From the IMG/VR virus record IMGVR_UViG_3300025732_000035, positions 1-64,000 of that record: a stretch of 64,000 nucleotides of DNA; one strand, 5' to 3'. Under the pieces are notes generated by a model. That model saw only the letters and a list, made by a program, of their open reading frames with translations, had not been told where the DNA came from and did not search any database. This document shows, one piece after another, positions 31,328 through 53,712 of the stretch (the first letter of the stretch is position 1; every line of letters begins with the position of its first letter). A program made the position numbers and the translations under genes. Source of the stretch: a virus.

Positions 31328-31723
31328 TCAAACGCCAGAATAATCAAGCTCGCCAATCAAGCGCACTGTAACAGTACTGCGTCCATTGAACACGCTTTCT
31401 ACTTGCGGAGGCTCAGCATATTCCCAGAGGCCATTTGTTGGCGCTTGCACAACACTTTTTAGCGTTGTGCTCATGCCAGAAAACACATCATCGGGAAGCG
31501 TGAAGCGAGCATAGCTGCCAAACTGGCCATAGTAATGATCAAGAATGGCTTTCGTATTAGCGTCAGAAATATTTTCAAACTGAAGATCAATGGCATGACC
31601 AAATGACCGATTGCCAAACACTCGCTTGACGGTTGCTCCTGAAAGTCCACGATAAACCTTCGTGGGAAATTGTCCTGGAGAATAAGAACGTCCAGTTGGC
31701 CTAATAGAAGGAAATATTGCCAT
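31328..31723 (-). CDS. Minor tail protein (lambda M-like position), 131 aa
   Basis: An all-beta protein with motifs SIRPTGRSYSPGQFPTKVYRGLSG, FGHAIDLQFENISDANTKAILDHYYGQFGSYARFTLP and VESVFNGRSTVTVRLIGEL. These correspond to a family of minor tail proteins that follow the tape measure gene. Start coincides with the tape-measure stop. It should form part of the tip ring. Confidence 0.7.
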   Translation of the reverse strand: MAIFPSIRPTGRSYSPGQFPTKVYRGLSGATVKRVFGNRSFGHAIDLQFENISDANTKAILDHYYGQFGSYARFTLPDDVFSGMSTTLKSVVQAPTNGLWEYAEPPQVESVFNGRSTVTVRLIGELDYSGV

Positions 31724-34700: not shown

Positions 34701-37488
34701 CATCAGTAACAATGCGCACACCATTAGTAATTGGCAAAATAAACTTATTGGCAAACAAAATTGCTGCAGGTTCAAATGTTTCATAAAAAAGTTGAACTGT
34801 TGTTTGAAGCCTGTTCATTACGCCTTGGAATGTACTTGCAGCACCAACAGCGCCTTTGCCAAACTCATCTTTCATCGTGGCGCCAACATTAACAAGCAAT
34901 TGCTTCATTGCATCACCTTTAAACGCGCCATCTTCCATCGCTTGACTAAAGTCCTGCACGCTCATTTTTGCGGCTTTTGCAAATAATGCGAGCGCGCCAG
35001 GGAGAACATCTCCAAGTTGACTTTTAAGCTCTTCACTCATAACTTGCCCCTTGCTTGCCATTTGAGCAAAAGCATACATAACACGATCAACCTTGTCTGC
35101 GCTCATTCCAAATGTAGCCGCGCCCATTGAAATGCCTTCAAAAATGCCACGAATTTCTTGTCCCGAAAAACCCGCTGGCTTCATTGACGCATACAATTTT
35201 GTAAATCCATCTCTTGCCGATTGAAGAGGAATATTATATTGATCGACTAAAGATAGTATGTATTTATTTGAAGTTGAAAACTCTTGCGCGGATGGCGTAA
35301 TAGCGTCAAGAGTGTTGCGAAAATTTTGGAGTTGACTTACTGCGTTTGCCACCTGCGATGGGAAGTCTTGAATAAACGCTAAAAGCTTATATGCTTGACC
35401 AAACAGAAGCACTTGTTTTGTTGCAAATGCAAATTCACTGCCAAGTTCTTTGATGGTGCCAGCACCAGGAAGATTTCCAAAACCTCCCATCGCACGCCCG
35501 AAGCCTCCCATTCCTCCAGTGCCGCCAAATCGGCCTCCTCCGCCACTAGGGGGAATTGCTCCTCCTCCTGTCATTGATGGTTGCGGAACAATAGCGCCAC
35601 CCGCCGCATAAGGAACAATGGCACTTAATGAGCGAGCACTTCTATATGTTTGCGAATAAGGAGCAGGGGCGCGTCCAGCGCCACCTCCCATTACATCTAT
35701 GCCACGCAAGTCAGAACGCATGCGAGCTTCACGCTCACGACGAGCCATCATTTCAACTCTCGTTTCACCTCCAATGGCGCCAGTTGCGTATGGGCTCGGA
35801 GCGCGACCGACACCAGCGGGAAGCAAGCCAGCAATATGCTGTCCTTGTAACATTCTTTGCGAAGTCCCAAGATCAGCCACTTGTGCCGGAATAATTCGAG
35901 CACGCGATTGCGCCAGTTTGATAGCGCCCTCGATTTCGCGCATCAACGAAGAAACAGCATCGTCAATTCTTGCGTCCTTCGTTCTCGCCTCCGCGTCTTT
36001 TAACGCTTGAACAAGATACGCAAACGCCCCCATTGCGTCTTTGATGCCAGAAGACGTCTCGCGCACTTCAGTATCAATGACTGTAAATTGACGCTGTAGA
36101 ATCTCGTCTAAATTCTTGCGAAGCGCCGCATAAATGCGTTTTGTATCAACAAGTTGTCCGCCGCCGGAAGGCAATGCTCGTGGACCTTGTTGTGCGATTA
36201 AAGCGTCAACAGCGGCCTTAATTTGAGACTGTACTGACATTGCAGGCAGTAGTCCTGCAGGCGGCCTCGCGCCTCCTATTAGGCCAGCAGCAGACGCGCC
36301 AGCAGGCAAAGCCCTGCCAGTTCCCGATGGTCCAATGGGGATGTTTCTTTGTGGAATGGTTGCGGGGAAATTGACGCCAGGCAAAGCGCGTTGTTGCGCC
36401 ATTTCACGACGAATAGTCGCCGGATCCATTCCAAGCATCTGGAATAGTCCCCTAGCAAAAGTATCAAGAACTTTATTTAATCCGCTCCTATCTGGATTCC
36501 TCATCATTGCTTGAGGATCAAGATATTTAGTGATAGCCTCAATGCTTGCTTCTTGAACAAGTTTGTCAATCAATGCAGCCGCTGTATCGCTTTTGTACTT
36601 ATAAGCGCCCTTCACTCCAACTTGGCTAGCAATATTTTTTAAGCTTCCAATGCCTTCTCCTGTGATTGCAGTGCGGAATTGCTCGCGTCGCGCAGTCTCC
36701 GTAACCCCGCCACCGGCCATTCGCTCAGCGCCAATGCGAGCGATGTCTTCCATTTTCCTTGCCACTTCGGCTTGGATTTGAGAAGGAGTTTTTGCAATGT
36801 CAACTTCAGCTTTTATCTTAATTGCAATGTTGCCCAGTTTCTCATTGACTACTTTTTTGAATTCAGAAACATCAGCATTATTGATTGACGCTTTTATGCT
36901 CGTGGGAATACGAAGCTTTCCGCCTCCCTGTTTGATTTTCTGATCGGATTGAATACGTGCTTGAATGGCATCTAGTACACTTCTCGCCTCTTTACCAGTG
37001 GCGCCATTCTTGATTCCAATGGTAACTTGCGCCTGTCTAGAAAGTTCCTTAATAAATGCAGCCGTTTTGGGAGTGGCAAGTTTTGTTGGGAGTTGAATTT
37101 CGCCCGCCCCGCCGGACACAATATCCCTATAAATTTGCGCTCGTATCTTGCGAACTTTTTCTTTGCTGAATTTTTCAACATTAGCTGATGCATTAATACT
37201 CAGCTTAATTTTTTCATCTTTAAGCGCTTTTAAAGTTTTCTGAAAATTAGCGACTTTATCGGTTAGCACATTTAAAGTATTGCTTTCAATTTTTACGTCA
37301 AAAGACTTCTTGCCGCCAAGGTAACGACTTAGCAGTCTGTATTGATCTGCAACGCTTTTTTTATTAAAACGAACGTTAATATCAATCGGCTGTCCCGCAA
37401 GAGAGGAAGTGGCCTTTAGCAATTCTTGCTTGAAGAAATTAAGGTCAAGACCCACCTTGAGGGTCATATCAGCATTTTGACCTGCCAT
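31723..37488 (-). CDS. Tape measure protein, 1921 aa
   Basis: The longest gene of the window. N-terminal 700 residues: helical, Lys/Ala-rich with several Gly/Pro-rich linkers (about 620-660, GGGGRFGGTGGMGG). Residues about 715-905 are the tape measure domain: QLQNFRNTLDAITPSAQEF, YNIPLQSARDGFTKLYASM, GIFEGISMGAATFGMSADK and AAKMSVQDFSQAMEDGAFKGDA. Two to three hydrophobic segments (about 1020-1120) may form the pore in the host membrane. A long coiled coil (about 1250-1500) and a Gly/Ala-rich C-terminal part follow. Using about 0.15 nm per residue the tail would be near 280-290 nm long (inference). It sets tail length and is ejected with the DNA. Confidence 0.9.
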   Translation of the reverse strand: MAGQNADMTLKVGLDLNFFKQELLKATSSLAGQPIDINVRFNKKSVADQYRLLSRYLGGKKSFDVKIESNTLNVLTDKVANFQKTLKALKDEKIKLSINASANVEKFSKEKVRKIRAQIYRDIVSGGAGEIQLPTKLATPKTAAFIKELSRQAQVTIGIKNGATGKEARSVLDAIQARIQSDQKIKQGGGKLRIPTSIKASINNADVSEFKKVVNEKLGNIAIKIKAEVDIAKTPSQIQAEVARKMEDIARIGAERMAGGGVTETARREQFRTAITGEGIGSLKNIASQVGVKGAYKYKSDTAAALIDKLVQEASIEAITKYLDPQAMMRNPDRSGLNKVLDTFARGLFQMLGMDPATIRREMAQQRALPGVNFPATIPQRNIPIGPSGTGRALPAGASAAGLIGGARPPAGLLPAMSVQSQIKAAVDALIAQQGPRALPSGGGQLVDTKRIYAALRKNLDEILQRQFTVIDTEVRETSSGIKDAMGAFAYLVQALKDAEARTKDARIDDAVSSLMREIEGAIKLAQSRARIIPAQVADLGTSQRMLQGQHIAGLLPAGVGRAPSPYATGAIGGETRVEMMARREREARMRSDLRGIDVMGGGAGRAPAPYSQTYRSARSLSAIVPYAAGGAIVPQPSMTGGGAIPPSGGGGRFGGTGGMGGFGRAMGGFGNLPGAGTIKELGSEFAFATKQVLLFGQAYKLLAFIQDFPSQVANAVSQLQNFRNTLDAITPSAQEFSTSNKYILSLVDQYNIPLQSARDGFTKLYASMKPAGFSGQEIRGIFEGISMGAATFGMSADKVDRVMYAFAQMASKGQVMSEELKSQLGDVLPGALALFAKAAKMSVQDFSQAMEDGAFKGDAMKQLLVNVGATMKDEFGKGAVGAASTFQGVMNRLQTTVQLFYETFEPAAILFANKFILPITNGVRIVTDAFNSLISKQEAVTEGGSQLAASMQSIIPSLQGIWQNMQMAGQAIKGVANALAPVLKGFLQILSLPIVGVFAQVYTTILLLNGAFTLLGGRILAGLIVSLVQTIGRMTALNMATIATNSTLAGTQLQLRLLSSGLAATGGAVTAFASVVRTAMLTTVVGAIATAVTFAVSEFVRLRGVMDDIAGRYKNIGDQARLMGESGNVAGIDRLNKSLLEQANTYEKIAKAMSKADINPESRPYESARIDKATTEAMKRAGLGGYVQTGPAGNYVIPEDISKVMDAINKNRDERRKMQAILAGQRSKAQQEQNRLDAQLKPGPIDLSAGQDTDKSKRERQLRDFQSEAIEQLKVNERIAQAKLEQQRQLEIIDETEYEIASASNKRKFELLVIDQALADKKAGIGDYEASIRAKQLAVFEQLAENERQLVEEEYQTSIKGAKLKLARPFKEGIRDENIEIKKQMVLLGNLRNGYDGLTVEQEANFIIEDKIRELKTKQQKLIETEIENLKEVTLERIKAARALQIEQTIKGLRDQLSLLRAISEEEQKRLRIAQENKDATAEQLNLIYDLEKVRDNIKAVRETIDSFVTDTSSDYKGFLKEVISGEDAVESLKKFQEALKDRTLTIFLDFAMAPVEKFFKEGLSKFAIEKFFPKGAIENMPEGTKPSTTPIEAQDKNTAETKLNTEAIKANTAAMTGAGGAATGAGPYASQSGGMFSLDYASGNALQMPELGSLTESANAYAEQLGQVDASVWNSAMTVGAAGEEMGPNGAAGKTWQQSLAGVVGGIGMAAGSIMGIMAGINQIKEGGTSNVLGGIGMIASMAGSLLGGFSGMFGGGSVGQFGTSSSFNGTADALGAAPFAPKLGAVFANGGIARGGFRAFANGGVVGGPTLGLMGEGKYNEAVVPLPDGRSIPVQLGGRSARDLMGNGAPGMPQAPSLSMKFETTKINGVEYVSREQLEQAMAETRRASIAGGAQRGMSMTLDKIKQSPSTRSSIGIR

Positions 37489-41388: not shown

Positions 41389-42297
41389 TCAGCTAGACGC
41401 TTGAACGTAGATCATGCTCTTGGGATAGTACAGAGCAACACCACCCACACGGGCATGAGCAGGAACGATGAATTCCAGACCACGTTGCTGGGGCGGGAAC
41501 AGCTCAAGGGGCTGAGGAATGTGCAGTTGCACCTTCTCAGGATCACGCTTGTACACCACCATGCGGTCTGTGTTCAGCGGGCTGTTGTCAGCTTCCAACT
41601 GGTTAATGGGCTCAACGTTGCGGATATAAGGGTTGGTACGCAGGAAGTACTCAAGCACGGTCACGTCCGAAGAGTCGGAATTGCGAGTGGTGCTAATCTT
41701 GTTGTAATCCGCGTAGGACAGCAAGATGGTATCGGGCTGTTCCTTCATCTTGGAGCCGTTGATAATGGCAGTCACGCCATAGTTCAGCAGTTCCAGCATT
41801 TCCTGAGCGGTGGTGCCGGCAGTGGTGAACCACTTATCAGCAGCAACAACGTCCACAGTTGAGTTGTTGAAGAAGCCAGCGAGACCCACAGAGCTTTCGC
41901 CGAAGAAAGCCAGGCTCTCCACTTTCTCTTCATAGGCACGACGCACAGCAGCAGCACGACGCTGCTCCAGGGCGATGTTCGCCATTTGAGCAGCACGCAG
42001 TTCTTGCACGGTGTAGCCAAAGCTGCCACCGAAAGAACGGATGTTGATGCTCTTCTCCACTTGGCTGATGTCAGCACGGGGCAGATCATCGGCAGCGTCC
42101 GCAATCAGACGGAACTCACCAGTGGAGTCCATGATGCGATAGGTGAAGGTCTGGGCGCCAGGACCAGCTTCAGCAGTGACGGGAAGAACAGTGGGATATT
42201 TAATATCCGCATACTGCACTTCAAAAACTTGGGGGCGAATGTACTCAAGCTGACGCTCAAGGAACAGGCCCGCATCATCCATACGGAATTCAGACAT
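41389..42297 (-). CDS. Major capsid protein
   Basis: A 302-residue HK97-fold capsid protein; I use the ATG at 42297, which follows a GGAGG ribosome-binding site, not the upstream in-frame start. Characteristic blocks: ALFLERQLEYIRPQVFEVQYADIKYPTVLPV-type opening, then FTYRIMDSTGEF, INIRSFGGSFGYTVQELRAAQM, FGESSVGLAGFFNN, ILLSYADYNKI, and near the end RGLEFIVPAHARVGGVALYYPKSM. They resemble the DUF2184 group of capsids. No N-terminal scaffolding extension is present; the scaffold is supplied by the gene 42877-44070. Confidence 0.85.
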   Translation of the reverse strand: MSEFRMDDAGLFLERQLEYIRPQVFEVQYADIKYPTVLPVTAEAGPGAQTFTYRIMDSTGEFRLIADAADDLPRADISQVEKSINIRSFGGSFGYTVQELRAAQMANIALEQRRAAAVRRAYEEKVESLAFFGESSVGLAGFFNNSTVDVVAADKWFTTAGTTAQEMLELLNYGVTAIINGSKMKEQPDTILLSYADYNKISTTRNSDSSDVTVLEYFLRTNPYIRNVEPINQLEADNSPLNTDRMVVYKRDPEKVQLHIPQPLELFPPQQRGLEFIVPAHARVGGVALYYPKSMIYVQASS

Positions 42298-42313
42298 TTT
42301 TAAGAGCCTCCTA

Positions 42314-42874
42314 TCAAGAATCAGCAGAGAGGGTGAAGCTCGGACCATTCAGCTCCAGAACAGCAAGGCCGCTGCCAGTAGTGGAGGTGAGGAAACGAGC
42401 GTTAGCGAGGCGAACAGTTTTGCCCGATGCAAAAGCATGAGAGAACTGACCGGCCTTGCCAGTGCCGCTAGCGGAATACAGCACACGCACGGGAGATGCG
42501 GGAGTAACAGCGCCAGTCACATAAACGGCAACTGCACCTTCATTGGCCACGTTCATGGCTTGCTGGTTCTTCACGCCAGGACGGTTATTTGCGTCCAGAG
42601 CGGTTTCATCAACATAGGTGAGGACGTTAACGCCCAGCACGGTATCAGAAGTGCCAGAAATGGTGGTAGCAGAATTGGCAACAGTGCCAGCAGTGTTGTA
42701 CACAGCCAGATTGCCAAAAGGAATAACAGCGCCGGTCTCGTTGAGCCGGGTGGTGATAGTGTTGTCGCGGATGTCAGACAGTTGACCTTCCAGCAGTGCA
42801 TTGTGCTGCAGGCTATAAGCCTGCTGCACGCCACCAGCGGAGGCGGTGCCCGAAGCAGAGAAAGTTACGGCCAT
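42314..42874 (-). CDS. Head decoration protein, 186 aa
   Basis: An all-beta protein rich in Ala, Gly, Thr and Ser, with MAVTFSASGTASAGGVQQAYSLQ opening, then AVYNTAGTVANSATTISGTSDTV and TVRLANARFLTS. Position between protease-scaffold and capsid matches small head decoration or stabilisation proteins (lambda D-like). It probably trimerises on the capsid surface. Ribosome-binding site GGAGGC precedes the capsid gene. Confidence 0.7.
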   Translation of the reverse strand: MAVTFSASGTASAGGVQQAYSLQHNALLEGQLSDIRDNTITTRLNETGAVIPFGNLAVYNTAGTVANSATTISGTSDTVLGVNVLTYVDETALDANNRPGVKNQQAMNVANEGAVAVYVTGAVTPASPVRVLYSASGTGKAGQFSHAFASGKTVRLANARFLTSTTGSGLAVLELNGPSFTLSADS

Positions 42875-42876
42875 AA

Positions 42877-44070
42877 TTACTTAGCCTCCTTGGAGATGGA
42901 AAGGGGCTTCTTCCAAGCATTCTGCAGCATGTCCATATAGGACGAAGGTGCAGACACGGGAGAAGCAATGGAAGCTACGACTTTGCGCAGCTCATCAGTG
43001 GTGGCAGAATCTTTGCGACCCTCAGAGAGAGTATCAAACATTGCTTGCACGTAGTCATCGCTCTTCTCGGAAAGATCAAGCTCGTCACCACGTACTGCCT
43101 TAATGGAATCAACCATCACTTCACGGGCAGTTTTGCCAGCGAAAGCGTAAGCAGCATCGAGAACAGGCTTAGCCTTCTCGATGAGAGCAACGCGCTCTTC
43201 CACCATGGAATCAAGATTGATTTCCTTGGAAGCTACCAGTTCAGCGTTCAGCTCTTCAATTTGCTCAGCTAGGGCATCGGCGCGACCTTCGGCAGCGTCC
43301 ATTTTGCCCTTCATTTCTTTTTCCATGGCATCCATTTCTTCCTTCATTTTGGAAGCTTCAGTCACCATGCCATCGTACTTTTTCTTCATGTCTTCGTAAG
43401 ACATACGGCCATCTTCCCGTTCTTTGGTGATCGCAAGAGCAACGCTCTCACTCACCTCAAACTCGGCGCCGTCAAATACGACTTTTGCAGTCATAAGACG
43501 TTCCTCGGTGTTTTGAATTAAAGAGGGGTCAGCAGCATCTTGTCGATCAAGATGGAGCTTCACCTGTGGGCCAGCACGGCCCCGTCGAACAACGGCGATG
43601 TGATTTCCAACGATTTCCTTTTGGATGCCGTCGTAATGCTCACCGCTATCGGTAACGCCAGGTGTAGGGTCATAACTGACTCGATAACCAGCGCTAACTT
43701 CACGAGCATCGCCGCGCATAATACGATCAATGGCGTCTTGATCTGTGATTGTCATCACAGCCTTGACGAAACCATTGTCATACACCACTTCAGTGCTGCT
43801 AAATCCTACTTGGTAGTCTTTAGTATTGTTAGCATCTAAAAGAACGGGCGGATGTTCGGCGGTTACGGCCTTGCCAGCAAAAGAGGCTAGGCTCGCGGGA
43901 GAGGCCACTTCTTCTTCAGGTCTATATTCGCGACGCACTGAACCATCAGCATCTGTATAGAGCTGAATACCAGTGCGAGCAATAGAGGCCCATGCCCGAA
44001 GATAACCTTCAGGCGTCACCTCATATTTCTCAATGGGAGAGAAATCGTAGCGACAAGATGTGGTGCTCAT
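42877..44070 (-). CDS. Prohead protease (DUF2213-like) fused to scaffold
   Basis: A 397-residue protein. Residues 1-190 form a DUF2213-like protease: YEVTPEGYLRAWASIARTG, AVTAEHPPVLLDANN (His), AREVSAGYRVSYD (Ser) and GNHIAVVRRGRAGPQ. Residues about 215-310 are a long coiled coil (MKKKYDGMVTEASKMKEEMD...), typical of scaffolding. The C-terminal 50 residues bear the region likely bound to the capsid protein. Protease domains at one end of a scaffold are common in HK97-fold phages: the scaffold shapes the prohead and the protease then removes it. It is the first gene of the leftward morphogenesis operon and follows a -10-like TATAAT at 44099-44105. Confidence 0.8.
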   Translation of the reverse strand: MSTTSCRYDFSPIEKYEVTPEGYLRAWASIARTGIQLYTDADGSVRREYRPEEEVASPASLASFAGKAVTAEHPPVLLDANNTKDYQVGFSSTEVVYDNGFVKAVMTITDQDAIDRIMRGDAREVSAGYRVSYDPTPGVTDSGEHYDGIQKEIVGNHIAVVRRGRAGPQVKLHLDRQDAADPSLIQNTEERLMTAKVVFDGAEFEVSESVALAITKEREDGRMSYEDMKKKYDGMVTEASKMKEEMDAMEKEMKGKMDAAEGRADALAEQIEELNAELVASKEINLDSMVEERVALIEKAKPVLDAAYAFAGKTAREVMVDSIKAVRGDELDLSEKSDDYVQAMFDTLSEGRKDSATTDELRKVVASIASPVSAPSSYMDMLQNAWKKPLSISKEAK

Positions 44071-44132: not shown

Positions 44133-44417
44133 ATGATGTTTCTCAAGAAGAGCGGCGCCGATGTGCTTAAAATGCCCCATCAGCAAGCTCGCCTACTCAT
44201 TGCTTCTCGCATTAAAGAAGCCCGCCTTAACAGCGGGCTTTCACAGAAGAATGTAGCAGAAGCTTTACATACAAGTCAGAGTTCTTATTCTCGAATGGAA
44301 CGCGCTGAACTGGCTCCTGACTGCGTGCAAATTCGCACTCTCAGCGGTCTCTATGGAATAAGCGTACTGTGGCTGATGGGCTACCCATCGTTCATTCTCA
44401 ATACGAAGCGCGATTAA
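44133..44417 (+). CDS. XRE-family helix-turn-helix regulator, 94 aa
   Basis: A Cro/CI-type regulator: RLLIASRIKEARLNSGLSQKNVAEALHTSQSSYSRMERAELAPD (motifs: KEARLNSGLSQKNVAEAL and SYSRMER; about residues 25-66), then LSGLYGISVLWLMGYPS. It is the only plus-strand gene among late minus-strand genes of this section. The 17-bp palindrome at 44085-44101 lies between it and the morphogenesis operon. Overlaps the converging gene (44414) by four bases. Probably controls late or its own expression; lysogeny is not supported by an integrase in this window. Confidence 0.8.
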   Translation: MMFLKKSGADVLKMPHQQARLLIASRIKEARLNSGLSQKNVAEALHTSQSSYSRMERAELAPDCVQIRTLSGLYGISVLWLMGYPSFILNTKRD

Positions 44418-44728
44418 TCTTCGTCCTCATCGTCGTCGTCGCGAATATCACGAAGCTGGTCTTCAATGCCTTCCATGATGTACGATTTTGCCATTGCCTC
44501 AATTTCAAACGTTAAAAACTTAGTTGGCTCAAAATGAGGATCAGGCTTTTCGTAAACGCTCATTACATAGATGTGAGTTTCGTCTAGCCGACCATTTTTA
44601 AAGCATTGCTTCTCAACTAGCTCCCAGCGTGAAGTATTGCGATGCTCGTTAGAAGAAAGAATAGACAACGCCTGCAAAAGACCAATACCTTCATCCTCTT
44701 GTTCGATGACGCGCACGTATTCGCTCAT
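44414..44728 (-). CDS. Hypothetical acidic protein, 104 aa
   Basis: A mixed alpha/beta protein with a poly-acidic end (DIRDDDDEDED). HIYVMSVYEKPDPHFEPTKFLTFEIEA suggests a beta sheet. It follows the gene above by overlap (ATGA). Function unknown; strongly acidic tails occur in DNA mimics. Confidence 0.55.
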   Translation of the reverse strand: MSEYVRVIEQEDEGIGLLQALSILSSNEHRNTSRWELVEKQCFKNGRLDETHIYVMSVYEKPDPHFEPTKFLTFEIEAMAKSYIMEGIEDQLRDIRDDDDEDED

Positions 44729-45090
44729 TGATCTTTGTTTCGACTTTCCAGCATTTTAATGATGCGTCGAGCCCAAGACTCTCCCGCATCGCCGCCCCAT
44801 AAATCCCAGCTAATTTTTCCTGCATCATCTTCTCCACCGCTTTTATTCTTTCGATGGCGAGAGAAGAAAGCTGCCATACGCTTGATAGTGGCATAACTAA
44901 CTTTTTCTCCGTTGGCCAAGCTTGTAGCCCTAGCCACTCCACTGCCAATACCCTGCTTCCCCGCCTCCTGCGTCGTTAAACCGCCTTTGCCGTGTTTCCT
45001 GCGCAGCTCCAAGCCACGACGGGCAGCGCTCCTTACGGCAGGAGGAGGGGAGAAGCTTTCAGCGTCTCCCCTCAGCGCTTTTTTCCGCAA
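44725..45090 (-). CDS. DUF6321-like protein or frameshift extension, 121 aa
   Basis: The recognisable part (about residues 25-85: RRGLELRRKHGKGG, TTQEAGKQGIGSGVARATSLANG, TIKRMAAFFSRHRKNK) is a pattern shared by a small group of phage proteins with Gly/Lys-rich loops and a FSRH helix. No ATG or GTG is available, only a TTG at 45090 lying 5 bases from the slippery heptamer A AAA AAG (45084-45078) of the upstream gene. I think this frame is more probably the extension of the upstream protein, produced by -1 frameshift, than a separate gene. Confidence 0.55.
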   Translation of the reverse strand: MRKKALRGDAESFSPPPAVRSAARRGLELRRKHGKGGLTTQEAGKQGIGSGVARATSLANGEKVSYATIKRMAAFFSRHRKNKSGGEDDAGKISWDLWGGDAGESWARRIIKMLESRNKDQ

Positions 45091-45335
45091 CTCCCATCCA
45101 TTTCCCCTTCTTCTTCCTGTTCCTCTTCTTCTCCGGCTAGCTCCTTAAAGAAGCCCATGTAATACTCATCGCTCATATCTTTTTTCGGTTTGCGTGACAT
45201 ACCAGCTTCGGACAGGGCAATTGCCAGCGCCTGCTTCGGGCTCTTAACTGGTTCACCACTGCTGCTCTTAAGCTTGCCACCCTTAAATTCGCGCATTACC
45301 TTGGCAATTTTTGCCTGCTTTTCTTTCTTGGTCAT
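45072..45335 (-). CDS. Small DUF6496-like protein, 87 aa, with slippery end
   Basis: A basic start (TKKEKQAKIAKVMREFKGG) and SPKQALAIALSEAGMSRKPKK, which resemble the DUF6496 small phage proteins, then a helix and an acidic, Glu-rich stretch. Its last codons GGA AAA AAG CGC TGA include A AAA AAG, the standard -1 frameshift heptamer. If the ribosome slips, the protein would continue into the 44725-45090 frame, giving about 203 residues. Confidence 0.7.
   Translation of the reverse strand: MTKKEKQAKIAKVMREFKGGKLKSSSGEPVKSPKQALAIALSEAGMSRKPKKDMSDEYYMGFFKELAGEEEEQEEEGEMDGSCGKKR
45078..45084 (-). promoter_or_regulatory. Slippery heptamer A AAA AAG, candidate -1 frameshift
   Basis: Codons GGA AAA AAG CGC TGA on the minus strand contain A AAA AAG in the correct phase. 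The -1 frame is the 44725-45090 reading frame and stays open for more than 115 codons. Confidence 0.6.
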
Positions 45336-45361: not shown

Positions 45362-46078
45362 TCAATGGATGAATCCTATAGGAGCAGTGGCGATGTTCAT
45401 GTCAGGAAAAAGTTTGTCACGATACAAAACCATGCCAGTAATGAGACGTTCAGCAATAAAAGCTAACGCTCGCTTGTCATAGCCTCCAATGCGAAGAAAC
45501 TGCTTTTCATGTTTGTGCCAAATAGGAGCTAGAGCTACAAACAATGTGCTCATAAATTGCTTGTACTGAACATTACTTCCTCTGGCCATATTGCAGCCAA
45601 TAAAGCTGTTCTGTTTCCAAATGGCATCAATTTCTTCCCTTGAAAAAATCCAGCTTCCCGAATCTGCAATTTCCCTGGTGATAGCAGGAGCATCAAAAGC
45701 AGAATGTCCACCATAGAACTGCTGCTCTAGCGTGCAACTAAACAATGCAGGCTCCGGGAAATACAACGTATTTTTGTCGTACCATTGATCATTTGGCTCT
45801 AACCAATTGCGTCTGTATTGTGCATTGCCGATGTTCTTTTCATTCGCATTGAGAATCATCCAAGAAATGCAAGACAGCTCTCCCCATCGACTATTGCGAG
45901 TGGAAAGAGAAGCATTCTCATCATCAAATACATAACCTTCCCCACGGAGCGTTTCACGCTCCTCACTAGACAAAGCATATGCTCCTCCCATGATGGGAAC
46001 AATACGAGAGCGAGCTTCATACCTCACCTTCTCACCAGGAATACACACGGCATAAATGGTGCAATCAGACGGTTGCAT
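45362..46078 (-). CDS. DUF4422-like glycosyltransferase
   Basis: A 238-residue protein. ELSCISWMILNANEKNIGNAQYRRNW corresponds to the GxCHYRR-type block of the DUF4422 glycosyltransferase family, and later GNAQYRRNWLEPND and a C-terminal helix fit it. GT-A fold members add sugars to lipid or protein acceptors. The usual histidine of the signature is Gln here. It opens the minus-strand side of the glycan module and is coupled to the gene at 46065 by overlap. Confidence 0.65.
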   Translation of the reverse strand: MQPSDCTIYAVCIPGEKVRYEARSRIVPIMGGAYALSSEERETLRGEGYVFDDENASLSTRNSRWGELSCISWMILNANEKNIGNAQYRRNWLEPNDQWYDKNTLYFPEPALFSCTLEQQFYGGHSAFDAPAITREIADSGSWIFSREEIDAIWKQNSFIGCNMARGSNVQYKQFMSTLFVALAPIWHKHEKQFLRIGGYDKRALAFIAERLITGMVLYRDKLFPDMNIATAPIGFIH

Positions 46079-46781
46079 AGACTTTCCTCGTAGCCCAAAG
46101 CTCGTTGTAATTGTTCACGCCCCTAGCACCAAGCCCGGTAAGATCGCCGCCTCCTGCAGGCTTGCTCCAGGCCATAATCGTACCATCGGGAAGCACAAAC
46201 GCTCTGTTCTTCTGGCCATGCGTAGGCGTCAATTCAAGGTAGTCACCGTAGACAAAATTGGCTTGACTGCCATTTACGGCAAGCGCTTTACCTAAAAGAG
46301 TGGGGCCGGTGGGACATAATGGCGTGATGCCATAGTATTGCTCAATGCAATTGGCCACAATCATTTCAATGGCAGTTTGTAGTGCTGCATTGTCTGGCTT
46401 GGAATAGAGCACGGTTGTAGCGCAGGCCCAGCTTGTGTAGCTAAAGCGTTGGATATCACGAAAAGCCAAGAATTCAATGCGATCACCAAGATCCACTGCA
46501 TTAAAAGCTCTCACGCCAATGTCAAAATACCAGCCGCCAAGCTTGTTCAGCAGGCAGAATCGGCCAAGATCCGCCTTGTAAGAAAATGGCACCAAGCAAT
46601 CATATGCCCATACCACTTCCTCCCCATAGTTCTCAGCGATGAAAGCGCGAAGCGCGTCGTTGTTGTAAATAACATGCTCAGCATTAGGGAAGCATGCATC
46701 AATAGTTCCCGTGGCATGCTTAAGAAATGGACTCAGTTCTTCCGCCGGATCGGTAGAAAGAAAGATTTGTGAAATTTGCAT
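46065..46781 (-). CDS. Glycosyltransferase, GT32-like
   Basis: ATG at 46781. The block PFSYKADLGRFCLLNKLGGWYFDIGV matches the GT32/Gly_transf_sug family (KSDLLRY..LYEYGGIYLDTDV). The DxD that binds the metal and nucleotide sugar is changed to FDIG, so the second Asp is lost and activity should be confirmed. Later features SWACATTVLYSKPDNAALQTAIE and CPTGPTLLGKAL also match. It likely adds a sugar to an outer structure. Confidence 0.75.
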   Translation of the reverse strand: MQISQIFLSTDPAEELSPFLKHATGTIDACFPNAEHVIYNNDALRAFIAENYGEEVVWAYDCLVPFSYKADLGRFCLLNKLGGWYFDIGVRAFNAVDLGDRIEFLAFRDIQRFSYTSWACATTVLYSKPDNAALQTAIEMIVANCIEQYYGITPLCPTGPTLLGKALAVNGSQANFVYGDYLELTPTHGQKNRAFVLPDGTIMAWSKPAGGGDLTGLGARGVNNYNELWATRKVYATV

Positions 46782-46786
46782 GGCGA

Positions 46787-48010
46787 TCAAACAATCTTGG
46801 CAGGAGTACCAAAGCCCTTAAATTCGGGCTCTGCAGGCTTAGCAGCAAGAGTTTCATTCACTGCATCTTTAAGCTGCTGCTGAATATATGGCCATGTAAA
46901 GGGCTCTTCATGGAGACGTTTGTAGCACCATTGTCCATGCTGCTTCAGAATGTCGCGGTTCTCGTAATAGTAAGTGAGAATATTTGCAGCGCACTCAGGA
47001 TCTGGAAGCAAACGCTCCAAGCCGTAGTTCCTATCAGTTTCACTGGCATTGCATTCAATGCGAGGTATCTCATCGAAGATTTCAGCCAGGCTTGTATGGT
47101 CAGGAACTACTTGCGCCACGCCAGTGGCGCCATGTTCCGAGTTGACTAAGCCCCATCCTTCGCCAATGCAAGTGTTAATGCCAATATCGGCAGCGTTATA
47201 CACTTGATTCAACTGTTCAATGGGAAGACAGTTGTCTACTGAATAATGTGGGCTTGTCAAGATGAGCTTGCTTGTTGGATCAAAGCCTTCATCACGCGCC
47301 ACACGCTTAAACAGCGGAACCAATTCCCACCCCAAATCTTTGCTGCCCATATTCAGCCATAGACGAGCGTCGTCCTTGTCTTTGGCAAACTTAATGAACG
47401 CTTTAATTGTCAAATCAATGCGCTTACGCGGTTGGTTCCTGTTGCCATTGAATACAACAAATACATCATCTGGCACACCAAGTTTCTTACGGCATTCTTC
47501 CTTGTCCATAGGGAAGAATTTTGTAAAGTCTGTGCCATGGCCAATAATACGCACGGGCTTTGTGTAGCCCATCAGTTCAAGCTCTTTCTTGGCAAATTCC
47601 GTATAAGTGGCAAGCCCATCCCATTCCATCATGGGCTTGGCTAAGTCTGGGAACAAGCCATAAGAATCAATGGGAGTGTAGACAAACCATTTGAAGCCAA
47701 ACTGCTCCTTTAATGGCTTTGCCTTTTCCCATAGTTGCAAAGCAATCCAAATGTCATTGGTCACCCATACAAGGTCTGGCTTAAATGCTTGAATGACGCT
47801 TGTAATGCGATGGGAGCCAAATGGATCATTGCCATGCAACATGGCAGGATACACCGTATAGTTCTTCGCTTCTGGATGGGGGTCGCCGTGGAAGTTTACG
47901 GCCAACACAGCCACTTCATGCTCTTCTGCTAATGCAGGAAGCAAATATTGCGCCACTCGTCCGAAGCCTGTCTCTACAAACGCATCGCCACAATAAAGAA
48001 TGCGGGCCAT
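46787..48010 (-). CDS. Glycosyltransferase, GT4/GT-B fold
   Basis: A 407-residue GT-B protein. It opens with ILYCGDAFVETGFGRVAQYLLPAL (Gly-rich N-terminal loop), contains the GNRNQPRKRIDLTIKAF strand-loop-helix typical of GT4 and a C-terminal EX7E signature (CIGEGWGLVNSEHGATGVAQVVPDH). Such enzymes transfer hexoses from nucleotide sugars with retention. It belongs to the leftward arm of the glycan module and precedes 46065-46781 by six bases. Confidence 0.85.
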   Translation of the reverse strand: MARILYCGDAFVETGFGRVAQYLLPALAEEHEVAVLAVNFHGDPHPEAKNYTVYPAMLHGNDPFGSHRITSVIQAFKPDLVWVTNDIWIALQLWEKAKPLKEQFGFKWFVYTPIDSYGLFPDLAKPMMEWDGLATYTEFAKKELELMGYTKPVRIIGHGTDFTKFFPMDKEECRKKLGVPDDVFVVFNGNRNQPRKRIDLTIKAFIKFAKDKDDARLWLNMGSKDLGWELVPLFKRVARDEGFDPTSKLILTSPHYSVDNCLPIEQLNQVYNAADIGINTCIGEGWGLVNSEHGATGVAQVVPDHTSLAEIFDEIPRIECNASETDRNYGLERLLPDPECAANILTYYYENRDILKQHGQWCYKRLHEEPFTWPYIQQQLKDAVNETLAAKPAEPEFKGFGTPAKIV

Positions 48011-48070
48011 AGTTTCCCCTGAATCTTCGTCATCTTAAGGGGCTTTTATACTGATGGCAAAAGGAGGCTA

Positions 48071-48766
48071 ATGACATTACCATCTGGTTCAATACGCTTT
48101 TGCATTAGCACTTGCAAGAAGTTTGCCCCGCATACGATTCCTGTCATCATCCCTAGCTTGTTTGCTGCTGGCATCAAGCAAGAAGAAATTTTGATTGTTA
48201 ATGGCGGCCAAACTGTTCGCGCCAATACAAGCTACAAGGGCGTGCCAATGCTGCTGACGCAGCAGAATTCTTTTGAATACACGCCACTCATTGAAATTGT
48301 GGAGCATTTAATGGAAAGCGAGTATTGGTTTCTCCTTCATGACACATGCATTGCAGGCCCTCTCTTCAAGGCGTTGGCTTATAAGCCTCCCGTGGAGGCC
48401 CCGGAGAAAGTGGCAATGAAGCAAACGCCTTCAATGAGCATCGGGCTTTATCGCCACGACTACCTCATGACCCACAAGGAGCGCTTGATGGCCATCAAAA
48501 ACTTGGACAGCTCTCCTGAAGCATTGCAGAAATGGAAGCAGTGGGGCGTACCAAACGAGGACTACATGCTTTGGAAGCTCCAAGACGTACCTTGCCACAT
48601 TTATCATCCAGATAAGCACGGCCCTGACGAATGGAATTGTCAGGGGCACGCAGACCCATATGGAACTGGCATGCAGCGCCGCATTGAATACTTTCCGCAA
48701 TTGCACCTTGCTAAAGCCAAAAGCAATTGGCAAGGCGTTCAACCCCACCTTTGCATTGACATCTGA
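48071..48766 (+). CDS. GT-A-like glycosyltransferase or glycan protein, 231 aa
   Basis: A strong AAAGGAGG ribosome-binding site precedes the ATG. The protein is alpha/beta: an N-terminal SIRFCISTCKKFAPHTIPVIIPSL, ILIVNGG, then EYTPLIEIVEHLMESEYWFLLHDTCIAG, a helix-strand LLHDTC in place of the DxD-containing loop, and a Trp/His-rich end. The Rossmann-like layout suggests a nucleotide-sugar transferase, but I cannot confirm a named family. It forms a two-gene plus-strand unit with 48766-49719. Confidence 0.55.
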   Translation: MTLPSGSIRFCISTCKKFAPHTIPVIIPSLFAAGIKQEEILIVNGGQTVRANTSYKGVPMLLTQQNSFEYTPLIEIVEHLMESEYWFLLHDTCIAGPLFKALAYKPPVEAPEKVAMKQTPSMSIGLYRHDYLMTHKERLMAIKNLDSSPEALQKWKQWGVPNEDYMLWKLQDVPCHIYHPDKHGPDEWNCQGHADPYGTGMQRRIEYFPQLHLAKAKSNWQGVQPHLCIDI

Positions 48767-49719
48767 TGAAGCGCTTGGCAATTATCGGCGGAGGCTGGGT
48801 GGGATGTCATTTAGCAATGGCGCTCCGTAATGAAATGGAAGTGACGCTGTACGAAAAGAATCATACGCTCATTTCAGAAACTTCTTTTATTAATCAAAAT
48901 CGCTTGCACTATGGCTATCACTATGCCAGAAATGCCGCAACTCGCCGCTTGTGCGCTACTACTTTCGTGCGCTTCATGGAGGATTATGGCGATCTCGTTC
49001 ATGATGTAGAAAATAATTACTACGCAGTGTCGGAAGATGAAAGCCTTCTTGATGCTGAAACCATTTCAATTATTTTTGGAAATGGTCCGCACGCTCAACT
49101 AGATCCACAGGTATTTAATCACACATCGCTTTTGTTAACTACGCCTGAAAAGCGTATTAATGCCATTGGAGCAAGCCTGTATTTTCAATGGTGCCTAGAT
49201 CCGTTGGTGAAAAAGGAAAAGATTCAACAATCTAATCTGCAAGCACTAAAGCAAGATTATGATTTTGTTTTTGATTGCACCAATAATACTCTCTTGGAGC
49301 CATTGCCCTCTCATTTTTTTGAAGCAGTGGCAATGTTTATCTATCGCCCCAAAAAAGATCTTCCGTTCGGCGCTCTCACTTATATTGATGGAGAACTATT
49401 TTCTGTCTATCCATATAACGATAAATGCTTCTCATTAAGTCATGTGAAGCATGGTATCATGAAAAACAACTCGCTCGACAATGCGGACAATGCAAGGCAG
49501 CTAATTGAACAGCATGTGGAGCGTTATTGGCCAGGTTTTACTGATAGCTTTGACTATTTATTTCCCACTCTTTCAATTAAAGCGAAGACGAAAGACTGCA
49601 GCGCTAATCGCACGCCATTGATGCGTCAAGATGAAAATCTATTTTCTTTCTTCACGGGCAAAATCCAAGGCATCTATGCCATTGAAGCCATGGCTAGGCA
49701 AATTATCGCTCAGCCATAA
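48766..49719 (+). CDS. FAD-dependent oxidoreductase of the sugar-modification type
   Basis: Starts with a classic dinucleotide-binding motif (LAIIGGGWVGCHLAMAL) followed by EVTLYEKN, so it binds FAD. NQNRLHYGYHYARNAATRRLC is the conserved substrate block of the family of oxidoreductases found in surface-polysaccharide and glycan loci. C-terminal YPTLSIKAKTK, then FTGKIQGIYAIEAMA follow. Related enzymes include UDP-galactopyranose mutase-like proteins. It could prepare or modify a sugar. Coupled to the gene before it and tail-to-tail overlapping the isomerase gene by 10 bases. Confidence 0.8.
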   Translation: MKRLAIIGGGWVGCHLAMALRNEMEVTLYEKNHTLISETSFINQNRLHYGYHYARNAATRRLCATTFVRFMEDYGDLVHDVENNYYAVSEDESLLDAETISIIFGNGPHAQLDPQVFNHTSLLLTTPEKRINAIGASLYFQWCLDPLVKKEKIQQSNLQALKQDYDFVFDCTNNTLLEPLPSHFFEAVAMFIYRPKKDLPFGALTYIDGELFSVYPYNDKCFSLSHVKHGIMKNNSLDNADNARQLIEQHVERYWPGFTDSFDYLFPTLSIKAKTKDCSANRTPLMRQDENLFSFFTGKIQGIYAIEAMARQIIAQP

Positions 49720-50450
49720 AGCTGCCTAAACAGCGGATATTCTCGATGGTGCTGAGAAACATTTACCAGCTCGCGAGTGATTCCACCTTGGTAGCTGCTT
49801 GCGACTAAGAGCCGTTTGATTTGCTTGTGTTCATACTGATTCAAAATGGGACCATTGTCAGTGTCACTGATATGAACGTGCGCAATGAAACGGAAGTAAT
49901 GTTTAATAATCTTTGTTGGACTATCGCCCTGCAACCAGGCATTATTTGTATCAAGCATTGTCTTTACATTGCGCAAATTGTAAAAATCAATGTGATTAAT
50001 AATCTCCTCGACTGTATAAAAATACTTTCCGCCAAATACTTTGGCGATGGGTTCAATGCAAAGGATGGCATCGTTAGCTTCCAAGATTGAATCCATACGC
50101 TTCAAAACTTCCATCAAGCTTGACGGACTCCCTCGGCGCAAAGCAGGGCTTCCGAGAACAAAGCGCTTAATACCCATCAATGAGCCAAGTTTCGCCACTC
50201 GCAGCAAATGCTCTTGCGTGGCAGCGGTGTCTTCAAAGCTTTGAACGACGCTGTCGTAGAACAGCGCCTGGGCTGAATATGCCCAAAGCCCATAATGCTC
50301 CCTGTAGCGCTTTGCAATATCGCTAAAGTCTTCGTTTCTGGCAAAGATGCGAGATGGCACCAGTTCAATGAAATTAAAAGCTCCAGCATTAGCGCTTAAG
50401 ATTTCATGCTCTTCTTCGTCTTTCCAGCCAATTGCACTAATTCCAAGCAT
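49710..50450 (-). CDS. Xylose isomerase-like TIM-barrel protein
   Basis: A 246-residue sugar isomerase/epimerase-like protein of the AP-endonuclease-2 superfamily. Metal-site residues can be seen in order: ILCIEPIAK (Glu), KTMLDTNNAW (Asp), and AHVHISDTDN (His and Asp). LVNVSQHHREYP follows near the end. Members isomerise or epimerise sugars and cyclitols. Converges with the FAD gene and overlaps the epimerase gene by 14 bases. Presumably generates the sugar used by the transferases. Confidence 0.8.
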   Translation of the reverse strand: MLGISAIGWKDEEEHEILSANAGAFNFIELVPSRIFARNEDFSDIAKRYREHYGLWAYSAQALFYDSVVQSFEDTAATQEHLLRVAKLGSLMGIKRFVLGSPALRRGSPSSLMEVLKRMDSILEANDAILCIEPIAKVFGGKYFYTVEEIINHIDFYNLRNVKTMLDTNNAWLQGDSPTKIIKHYFRFIAHVHISDTDNGPILNQYEHKQIKRLLVASSYQGGITRELVNVSQHHREYPLFRQLYG

Positions 50451-51168
50451 TGATAAACTCCTCCATCTTCTTCAGCGATATTTCTTTGCTAGAAAAATAC
50501 GGCGAATAACTATATTCAATGCGTCGCCCACAATCGACAATCTCTCTCGCCCAAGGAAACCATTTCTCAACAATCTCTAAAGTTTCTATGGGTTCTGGAA
50601 ATAACTGATGCTCTCGCTCCCATCCTTTCCTGCAAGCTTCAGTATCAGCCCATAAATCATTAAGATCGTACCACTGGTAACAAGAATTGGCGTTGATTTT
50701 TTCCACATTATTCTTGGTGAGAAGATCAAACAAGACATTTTTCTTAATGCGCCGATGGAATAACGCAGGCAAGCGAATAATGGTAATGGCTGAATCAGGG
50801 AAAGTGCTCCTGATTAGCATTTCAAAAATGTAACGAACAGAGCCATAGTCAATTCCGTGAATTTCAGGAAAGTTCGGTACATATTCGTGCGTTTGACTAT
50901 AAACATCGATGGTGGAATAAAGAATGACTTCCTTTGGTCTCAATAGTCTTATTTTTGTCAAAACATGATACATATTGTCGAAATCAGCCATCGGCGCCTG
51001 ATTTGCTTTCCACTTTTCCGCTGGCAAACAAGCCAAATAAAGCTTGTCAATGTCCTCCTTCAACAATGGAGCAAGATGAATGTTTTCAGAATTAAAGCGG
51101 CAATCAAAATCATGATGCTCGCGCAAAACACTGCCAATCAGGCCAGTGCTTCCAATTAATACATCCAT
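50437..51168 (-). CDS. NAD(P)-dependent epimerase/dehydratase-like protein
   Basis: ATG at 51168 (a 17-codon upstream extension is rejected because it lies inside the next gene). The first residues MDVLIGSTGLIGSVL form the TGxxGxxG nucleotide-binding loop of short-chain dehydrogenases. Where the family has YxxxK, this has DYGSVRYIFEML, that is Y followed at +4 by Arg; IRLPALFHRR follows. With the usual Lys replaced by Arg, activity is uncertain. The 243-residue length suits a NAD-sugar epimerase. Coupled with the isomerase and 2 bases from the minor head gene. Confidence 0.75.
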   Translation of the reverse strand: MDVLIGSTGLIGSVLREHHDFDCRFNSENIHLAPLLKEDIDKLYLACLPAEKWKANQAPMADFDNMYHVLTKIRLLRPKEVILYSTIDVYSQTHEYVPNFPEIHGIDYGSVRYIFEMLIRSTFPDSAITIIRLPALFHRRIKKNVLFDLLTKNNVEKINANSCYQWYDLNDLWADTEACRKGWEREHQLFPEPIETLEIVEKWFPWAREIVDCGRRIEYSYSPYFSSKEISLKKMEEFINAWN

Positions 51169-51170
51169 GC

Positions 51171-51854
51171 TCAAACCGCCACTACGGGCGCTTGTTGACG
51201 CATGTATTGTACGCGGCATTTGCAGTTACTCATGCAAGCACAACGTTGTCCTGGCATCGGCAAGCTACCAATAGGGACAACGCCTCTAGCTGCAAAGTCC
51301 ACACAATCGCTGCAATGCTTCGCTTGCGGGTCCAAAATGCGTCGCATCAAACTATAGCCTTGTCGTTCTTGGCGAATTGCGGAACCTTCCCAGTAAGAAC
51401 CTCGCACAGATTGAGAATACATGCTGATACGAGCAAGAGCCATGGGAGTAGAAACGCTCCCAGCCAGAAGATCGCGAGCAAAACCCTCCAAGTAACGGTA
51501 TTCCGCACGAAGGCGCTGACCGATGCGACCCCAGTCTGAAGCTTGCATCGTATCCCGTCCACCATTGCCAATGATCGCTGCTTGTACATGCGCAAGCTTA
51601 AGCGCTTCCCTTACGCTTTGCTGCCACTGATCCAGCGTAATATCGCCGCTGCTAAGCATGTTTGTAAAACGATGTAACAAAGTGCCAAGCTTGTTAATTC
51701 GACCATCAACCAAAGCCTCCACGGCAGACTGACTGAGGAACCTTCCATTGCTTCCGCGATAACGGCCAGCAACGGGATCGTAACGCCATGAGGATTGGTC
51801 AAGACGCTGTTCAAAAACGGCAGCGAACGTTGATAAATCATTCAGGCTTTGCAT
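51171..51854 (-). CDS. Minor head protein (Mu F / SPP1 gp7-like), 227 aa
   Basis: A head morphogenesis protein encoded directly after the portal. The N-terminus is a helical region with SGDITLDQWQQSVREALKLAHVQAAIIGNGGRD; the C-terminal part carries the family's cysteines in RILDPQAKHCSDCVDFAARGVVPIGSLPMPGQRCACMSNCKC, where the C..C and GxxC...C patterns probably bind zinc. Such proteins enter the capsid with the portal. The start overlaps the portal stop by 17 bases. Confidence 0.8.
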   Translation of the reverse strand: MQSLNDLSTFAAVFEQRLDQSSWRYDPVAGRYRGSNGRFLSQSAVEALVDGRINKLGTLLHRFTNMLSSGDITLDQWQQSVREALKLAHVQAAIIGNGGRDTMQASDWGRIGQRLRAEYRYLEGFARDLLAGSVSTPMALARISMYSQSVRGSYWEGSAIRQERQGYSLMRRILDPQAKHCSDCVDFAARGVVPIGSLPMPGQRCACMSNCKCRVQYMRQQAPVVAV

Positions 51855-53712
51855 CTTCAGCCTCCAGAATATCCTTAAAACGCTCAGGCGCTTCCTTCTT
51901 CCATTGATTCAATGCAGCGTCAATGTCTTCGGGACTGATCAATGCGGCCTCATCCAAGTCAGACAGAATGAGCCCTTCTACTTTCATAGGCTCCATTGCG
52001 TCTTTCTTAAAATATTCTGCTTGTTCTTTCTTGCCGCTAAAAGCGCCTTCCATGGAGCCATGCTTACGCTTGTATAAAGCTTTGTATTTTTGCGTGACGT
52101 AAGCTCCTGCAACTGCACTCGGCCACACTTTGAACTTTGTTTTTGCTGCTGCAATGGCTTGTTTATGCAGCTCCTTGTCTTTAAAAATGGCATCTTCTTT
52201 TTCTTCGCCACGCTTGTGCTCAAGGTCGCCAGGAAGATAAAGGCCAGCACTATCCTCCACTTCACGACTACCGTCCATGGGAAGCGTGCCATTCTCCTCG
52301 TTCATTGGATCACGGCCACCAGGAGGCACTGCCATTTTTCCGTCACCCCCTTTCTGAGTGGAACCACCCCCAGCTTGAGTGGGTAATTCTCGGATGACAC
52401 TGGGATCGAGCGTAAGCTCCATGCTCCATTCAGAGCCGCCATAACGGGCATCTGCCACTTCCTTCGGACTCAGTACACCCAGTTGGATGTAACGGCCGTC
52501 TACAGCCGCCACACGCGCCCGCACATCTGCCATTTCGCGCTCATTAAGTTCAAACAATGGATTGAACGAAATGCGCCATGATTCAGGCAGTTCCCCTTTT
52601 GTTGGTCCCTCCTTGCTAAGCATGATCAGCTCCATCAGTTTTTTGATGGGCCGTTTGAAATGGACGCTTTGATAATCGGAAAGTGTCTTAGCGAAATCAC
52701 GCTCTTCACTCCGACCAGTGGAGCCAAGACCGCTTGGACTTTCGCCAAACAACACAGTATGAGGAATCTTGCTAGCACCAATAATGTCTACGCGCAACTT
52801 CTCTAAGATTTCTCCAATGCCGCCAAAATTACGACTAATAAATTCAAGCTCCTCTTTCTCTGCATCAATTGCGTAGCCGCGATAGATGCTCTTGCTCATA
52901 TCGTTCACTTGCAAGCGATCACGAATGGAGCTTTCCTTGCCAGCAGCCAACATTGCTGCTAAGCCCCTCACTTTATGAACAAAAATGTCAAACTCAGTGA
53001 GGAGCGTTGCTGCTGAATTCAAGCCCGTCCAATAATGACGGAAGCTGTCATAAACAGTTTGCAAGCTGCTCATGCCCCATCCATAGTTCCTTTGCCTAAT
53101 GCGATAGGGCAGCCAATCGCCATCAAAACGCAAGATCCTATCTTTATGAATATAAGTAAGCTGCGGCTGGTTAATTAAATCTCCAGAGATGATCTGATAA
53201 TAAGTGGCTTTTGAATAGTCGTATAAGTTTTCCTCATTAATAACGGGCGCAATTTGCCATCGGTCCAAGCACTCAATGTCTTCAATCCGACGAATATTGC
53301 GTTTATCGACAGGCATATAAGCGGGACGCCCATCGTCAATAAAAAGAAGTAAACAAGCACCCCCGTAAAGGCGGGCGTTTTTCGCTGCGAGATTGAGATG
53401 TTCGAGGATGTATAGGTCTTCAATAATTTGCTCAATCCCTTGCACTTCCTCGGCTCTAACGCCATCTCCGCCAAACAATACTTTGAAGCCTTTCCGCGTG
53501 GCTTGATCAGCATAAATATCAACAATGCGACGAGGAAGCCATTCACCATAAAGATTTTCTAGTTCTTCTTGCGCTAGGAATACTGTGGCTGTAGTTTTGG
53601 TATATTGCGCCTTGTCACGACCAGTGCCCATGCCGATGAGCACGTTCTGAAGGCCATCTGCCCTCACGCCACCGCTACCGGCATGACCGAGATCAACTGC
53701 TTCGCTTTCCAT
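51838..53712 (-). CDS. Portal protein (DUF1073-type) with C-terminal extension
   Basis: A 624-residue portal. Blocks typical of DUF1073-type portals: TATVFLAQEELENLYGEWLPRRIVDIYADQATRKGF, AAKNARLYGGACLLLFIDDG, HKDRILRFDGDWLPYR, IIGASKIPHTVLFGESPSGLGSTGRSEERDF and ISFNPLFELNEREMADV. Residues 1 to about 440 are the portal; about 440-530 is a Gly-rich, low-complexity linker; the last 95 residues contain a compact helix-rich module (AAAKTKFKVWPSAVAGAYVTQKYKALY), a pattern found alone in other phages. The portal forms the 12-fold ring used for DNA packaging and ejection. Confidence 0.85.
   Translation of the reverse strand: MESEAVDLGHAGSGGVRADGLQNVLIGMGTGRDKAQYTKTTATVFLAQEELENLYGEWLPRRIVDIYADQATRKGFKVLFGGDGVRAEEVQGIEQIIEDLYILEHLNLAAKNARLYGGACLLLFIDDGRPAYMPVDKRNIRRIEDIECLDRWQIAPVINEENLYDYSKATYYQIISGDLINQPQLTYIHKDRILRFDGDWLPYRIRQRNYGWGMSSLQTVYDSFRHYWTGLNSAATLLTEFDIFVHKVRGLAAMLAAGKESSIRDRLQVNDMSKSIYRGYAIDAEKEELEFISRNFGGIGEILEKLRVDIIGASKIPHTVLFGESPSGLGSTGRSEERDFAKTLSDYQSVHFKRPIKKLMELIMLSKEGPTKGELPESWRISFNPLFELNEREMADVRARVAAVDGRYIQLGVLSPKEVADARYGGSEWSMELTLDPSVIRELPTQAGGGSTQKGGDGKMAVPPGGRDPMNEENGTLPMDGSREVEDSAGLYLPGDLEHKRGEEKEDAIFKDKELHKQAIAAAKTKFKVWPSAVAGAYVTQKYKALYKRKHGSMEGAFSGKKEQAEYFKKDAMEPMKVEGLILSDLDEAALISPEDIDAALNQWKKEAPERFKDILEAEDAKPE

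Follow-up and report, generated by a model that had tools for sequence, protein, structure and literature searches.

A conserved -1 frameshift signal predicted to join a DUF6496 gene to a helical domain in the head module of viruses related to Synechococcus phage S-CBS4

In lambda gpG/gpGT and its homologues, a -1 slip near the end of the gene for a small zero-frame protein places a C-terminal domain on a minority of the product. In E. coli dnaX the slip site is A AAA AAG, accompanied by a close downstream hairpin, and an upstream Shine-Dalgarno-like stimulator is employed as well. Frameshifting is also known from head genes, namely T7/T3 gene 10, Lactobacillus phage A2 and Listeria phages (PMC5009743). 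This report concerns a pair of small reading frames, referred to as gene A and frame B, on the minus strand of a 64,000-nucleotide (nt) stretch of viral DNA (positions 1 to 64,000 of IMG/VR record IMGVR_UViG_3300025732_000035, a 73-kb viral contig); this whole stretch is hereafter called the window. Comparison of relatives indicated that A and B are very probably joined by a conserved -1 programmed ribosomal frameshift. The pair resembles lambda gpG/gpGT in having a small zero-frame protein, a slip near its end and, by prediction, a C-terminal domain on a minority of the product, and the lambda heptamer, G GGA AAG, is one of the types seen among A/B relatives. It resembles dnaX in combining A AAA AAG with a nearby hairpin, and it resembles the frameshifts of T7/T3 gene 10, phage A2 and Listeria phages PSA, A118 and A500 in affecting a head gene and in its predicted minor extended form.

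Gene A begins with ATG and encodes a protein of the DUF6496 family (PF20106), scoring 34.9 bits where the curated cut-off is 24; its N-terminal helices are basic and its C-terminal linker is acidic. The gene ends in GGA AAA AAG CGC TGA, so that the heptamer A AAA AAG (45084-45078, minus strand) is phased for a -1 slip, as the first-pass annotation had proposed. Frame B is open from the heptamer down to 44725, and the joined product was computed at exactly 203 amino acids (aa), where about 203 had been estimated. It had also been noted that frame B has no ATG or GTG start; the sole start-like codon before its conserved core proved to be a TTG at 45090, 5' of the heptamer. The predicted stimulator has a stem, AGGGG/CCCCT, that starts 5 nt past the heptamer, or 4 nt if an outer G-C pair is counted; the corresponding 39-nt stretch, taken from a near-identical relative, folded at -23 kcal/mol (z = -5.3). 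At the junction in the window, trypsin would give K and ALR, while Glu-C or chymotrypsin would release a junction peptide such as MDGSCGKKALRGDAE. In a naive scan of the window, a heptamer in phase and followed by a -1 extension was met at two further places, both within the span of one long open reading frame (ORF). The heptamer motif would not convince by itself; it is conservation across relatives that lifts this site above chance.

Relatives were gathered by scanning IMG/VR with B, with A and with alignments, and from GTDB genomes; approximately 136 distinct loci contained A and B together with a core that could be recognised. Of these, 107 had the -1 arrangement and a heptamer in phase. 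The heptamer was A AAA AAG in 81, G GGA AAG in 20 and C CCA AAG in 5, plus one locus (L365) that was assigned by hand and whose gene A carries an apparent error; a 108th -1 locus (L384) has lost a base beside the heptamer. In E. coli, according to a review (Atkins et al. 2016; PMC5009743), all three heptamers are highly prone to shifting. When heptamers were sought from -150 to +60 nt around the junction of 105 distinct relatives, a check that the first-pass annotation had suggested, 103 of 112 were in phase, and the spacer between heptamer and stem was 5 nt in 102 of 103 sites. The frame B protein was 75-99% identical over approximately 117 aa among relatives. The locus therefore has the elements of a -1 frameshift cassette: a phased X XXY YYZ heptamer, a structure at a short fixed spacing, and a coding -1 frame that depends on the shift. 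An upstream Shine-Dalgarno-like motif was found in 62 of 103 loci and may simply reflect Glu codons; a universal stimulator of this kind was rejected, the motif being missing from the other 41. By comparative standards the predicted frameshift is near-certain, and what had been called a probable joining of two small genes is strongly supported by its conservation in 107 distinct loci.

The six-A run within A AAA AAG might instead suggest transcriptional slippage, whereby a base is added or removed and a mixed pool of mRNA results. Polymerase slippage is argued against by the G GGA AAG and C CCA AAG loci, which keep the same arrangement without a long A run; moreover, a hairpin at a fixed 5-nt spacing is a ribosomal feature. 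This explanation was considered extremely improbable.

Frame B appears to depend on the shift for its translation. Before the conserved core, it contained no ATG, GTG or TTG in 61 of 83 distinct loci of the close family, and in 31 of the 83 this was still the case 23 codons further in. An independent ATG for the downstream frame, named beforehand as the finding that would count against a frameshift, was present in none of the 83; distant homologues of domain B do have their own ATG, yet they belong to other gene architectures. It might be argued that B is translated independently, initiating either at TTG 45090 or, through termination-reinitiation, close to the stop of A, and that the heptamer is incidental. 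The TTG is present in the window, the overlap of B with the end of A makes coupling possible, and one relative, discussed below, is annotated with a later start for this frame. Against this, the 61 relatives without a start-like codon have nothing to initiate from before the core, an independent start gives no reason for a heptamer, a phase and a 5-nt spacer that are all retained, and relatives with both parts in one frame show that A and B can form one protein. Independent initiation was therefore thought very unlikely. At its other end, the stop codon of B overlaps the start of the next gene in 100 of 105 relatives (ATGA in 83, GTGA in 17); because of this overlap, translation of the downstream gene may be coupled to ribosomes that have shifted.

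The only cultured relative found was Synechococcus phage S-CBS4, which is also the closest cultured relative of the source record (capsid protein 86% identical, plus a DNA match). Its junction reads A AAA AAG GGC TAA, followed by a AGGGGCGAC...TTCGCCCCT hairpin. GenBank and RefSeq divide the S-CBS4 locus into gp018 and gp019, and the start given for gp019 falls inside the B domain; judged from the sequence, these records both split and truncate the predicted protein. A literature search for DUF6496, or for a frameshift in the A/B pair, returned no report, nor was the shift annotated in the records checked. The earlier suggestion that a frameshift in the head region would be new therefore holds, as far as that search reached, for the A/B gene pair and not for head genes in general, given the T7/T3, A2 and Listeria cases. 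As a separate observation on annotation, Klebsiella phage RCIP0045 (L165, 1793-1918) contains an unannotated DUF6496 reading frame between two annotated genes.

The hairpin was examined among distinct sequences of the -1 type. All five AGGGG/CCCCT core pairs were kept in 50 of 57, and AGG was the codon used for Arg in 55 of 57. Covariation was seen at the adjacent pair, in which a Gly wobble base faces position 1 of a Ser or Ala codon (A-U 46, C-G 32, U-G 14); the remaining cases were 13 mismatches and 2 G-U. Among supported independent tree pairs, both sides of the stem changed together in 4.7 of 5 and oppositely in 0, which are too few to give p < 0.05 alone. Natural controls came from 28 loci where A and B occupy a single continuous frame. 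Here, the five core pairs were present in 6 of 21 distinct sequences and AGG was used for Arg in 7 of 21, and the nearby protein sequence was almost identical to that of -1 loci despite loss of the hairpin. In-frame fusions have thus largely lost the 5' arm of the hairpin, and the hairpin seems to be under selection for slipping. There were approximately 8 changes of frame state on the B tree; in a test of stem versus frame, 2.3 of 3 supported independent pairs went in the expected direction, again too few for significance alone. One in-frame fusion (L358, 3001-3648) differs from -1 relatives by a single extra A in the slippery run, which may reflect a natural switch or else a homopolymer sequencing error.

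These 28 loci also bear on the possibility that the -1 arrangement reflects sequencing error, or the decay of a split gene, and that the true gene is the in-frame fusion; apparent single-base errors in L157, L384 and L365 likewise favour it. The same -1 offset occurs at the same site in the genome of the S-CBS4 isolate as well as in 107 distinct loci, however, and strong conservation of the hairpin and the heptamer is confined to loci with a broken frame. The number of distinct loci already refutes this explanation, and it was given the least credence of those considered. Comparison shows each part of the signal, namely the heptamer, its phase, three alternative slippery sequences and the hairpin, as well as the existence of A and B as one protein in relatives.

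Under the mechanism proposed here, most ribosomes would terminate at the end of A and release the 87-aa DUF6496 protein. For a fraction, the hairpin lying 5 nt further on would impose a pause; both tRNAs would slip back one base on A AAA AAG, and these ribosomes would continue in frame B to yield the 203-aa A-B fusion. Domain B would then dock on the immature head, at the portal, protease or scaffold side, and the slip would set the share of A that bears B.

The role of B was approached through its occurrence elsewhere. No relative of solved structure (PDB) was found by sequence or by fold, and there was no NCBIfam match; a PDB fold match to lambda repressor was not significant (E = 2.7) and was not used. 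The phrog_2859 match is at domain level only, covering positions 164-265 of 740. When a natural in-frame homologue was modelled with AlphaFold2, B was all-helical, with a predicted local distance difference test (pLDDT) of 84-98 over most of its length, while A was helical and the acidic linker disordered. In a viral fold library, B matched many head proteins (prohead protease, XkdF, portal). By sequence, it is fused to an XkdF protease in Limnohabitans phage DC31 and to an S78 protease plus capsid in Roseobacter phage CRP-811; in uncultured phages, its fusion partners include portals of two families and a DUF2213 protease. It is also joined to enzymes, in zeta-toxin-type kinase/ParB and polyA polymerase/HAD combinations. 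Upstream of B in these other architectures, only chance-looking heptamers were seen. DUF6496 occurs alone in Vibrio phages pA2SJ1 and VpP_1, as a short gene adjoining the portal gene. From gene context, B is tentatively proposed to serve the immature head in docking or assembly. We read the A-B product as a putative minor form of the DUF6496 protein made for head assembly, because B recurs fused to a capsid polyprotein as well as to portals and head proteases, or else as dose control on B.

Several observations weigh against the proposed frameshift or its role. In L262 (junction near 2980), C CCA AAG is present and the usual hairpin is missing. A separate short A is not always needed, as the genomes with in-frame fusions indicate; no second DUF6496 copy was found in the in-frame records examined, and a T4-like solution, with separate short and long genes, was rejected on that basis. 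Three records of two kinds (L373/L374 and L392) keep the signal, with G GGA AAG still in phase and the hairpin retained, while A is cut to a remnant of approximately 25 codons; joining to DUF6496 is thus likewise dispensable in some cases. In these records the DUF6496 tail has its own ATG directly after the upstream gene. Lastly, since B has no solved relative, the docking role taken from gene context is a guess.

The remnant loci raise a rival that concerns function alone: the frameshift would be real, its purpose being to hold down the amount of B, or that of a coupled downstream gene, rather than to make a functional DUF6496-B fusion. Because L373/L374 and L392 retain slip site and hairpin after only a short leader, such dose control may be the main point, and the overlap of the B stop with the next ATG or GTG in 100 of 105 loci accords with it. 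With an in-frame fusion, however, B would be made in full amount, and DUF6496 is retained in nearly all loci. Dose control was accordingly regarded as a distinct possibility, short of an expectation.

Features of the A/B pair and its surroundings are listed in the table below. Portal, DUF2213 protease and capsid genes flank the pair, which is therefore placed in the head module.

Table. Coordinates in the window of the A/B pair, its signal and neighbouring genes, with loci carrying other fusions of B
Feature	Position	Strand	Basis or remark
Gene A, 87-aa DUF6496 protein (zero-frame product)	45072..45335	-	PF20106, E = 2e-8; IMG/VR relatives spanning exactly 1-87
Slippery heptamer A AAA AAG	45078..45084	-	Phased with gene A; conserved type in 107/108 -1 loci
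Gene A stop TGA	45072..45074	-	Heptamer starts 13 nt before end of A; same in 98/107 sites
Predicted stimulator hairpin GAGGGGAGA-C-GCU-GAA-AGC-U-UCUCCCCUC	45045..45073	-	Folds of the window and of a near-identical relative; covariation; loss in in-frame fusions
Frame B after the shift (ALRGDAESFSPP...), all-helical domain of ~117 aa; 203 aa when fused to A	44725..45078	-	phrog_2859, E = 1e-17
Downstream gene, function not assigned	44414..44728	-	Its ATG overlaps the B stop (ATGA)
Portal gene	51838-53712		Head-module neighbour of A/B pair
DUF2213 head protease	42877-44070		Head-module neighbour of A/B pair
Capsid protein	41389-42348		PF09950
Loci with promiscuous B fusions	L180, L172, L302, L304, L273, L162

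Other genes of this region were noted in passing. A small regulator of helix-turn-helix type (44133-44417, plus strand) lies on the opposite strand within the head module, and S-CBS4 has a repressor-like gene, gp021, at the same place and in the same orientation. Between the portal and head protease genes (45362-51219) are a glycosyltransferase and other sugar-metabolism-like genes; the same interval in S-CBS4 holds glycosyltransferase genes. Elsewhere in the window, a lambda G/GT-type site, A AAA AAA (37995-37989, minus strand), is situated between two small genes. Its zero frame ends in EAVEAKKAAKRNGPQ and a stop, the heptamer is in phase, and the -1 frame is open for approximately 150 further codons. 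This pair directly precedes a 1921-aa ORF (31723-37488) that is probably the tape measure, and the site is a candidate second frameshift in the same genome, of tail-chaperone type.

The well-supported, hitherto unannotated frameshift predicted at the A/B pair joins the few that are known from genes other than those of tail chaperones and major capsid proteins; the viruses that carry it form a large, mostly uncultured group related to a cyanophage. Its natural in-frame versions reveal which RNA features serve slipping, and the group, with three heptamers, hairpin variants, and fused and unfused frames, offers matched material for testing the rules of frameshifting; a widespread, uncharacterised domain is also flagged as tied to phage head assembly.

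The A/B pair differs from each described system. Lambda G/GT lies just upstream of the tape measure in the tail module and is composed of other domains, whereas the A/B pair is found between the portal and the protease and capsid genes (44070-41389), combines DUF6496 with B, and has a simple hairpin as its putative stimulator. The dnaX shift leads to a quick stop; here it leads to a new domain. In T7 10A/10B the zero-frame product is the major capsid protein, and the capsid frameshifts of T7/T3, A2 and the Listeria phages extend that protein, whereas A/B extends a small DUF6496 protein with a domain that also occurs on portals and head proteases. A broader proposal, less likely than not, is that B is a general head-docking module, found on portals, capsid polyproteins and head proteases as well as on several enzymes, and metered here by frameshifting, so that assembly would need a set minority of B-bearing DUF6496 proteins. 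That minority might be likened to the few gpGT among many gpG, in which case the A/B pair would, by analogy, apply the lambda G/GT principle on the side of the head.
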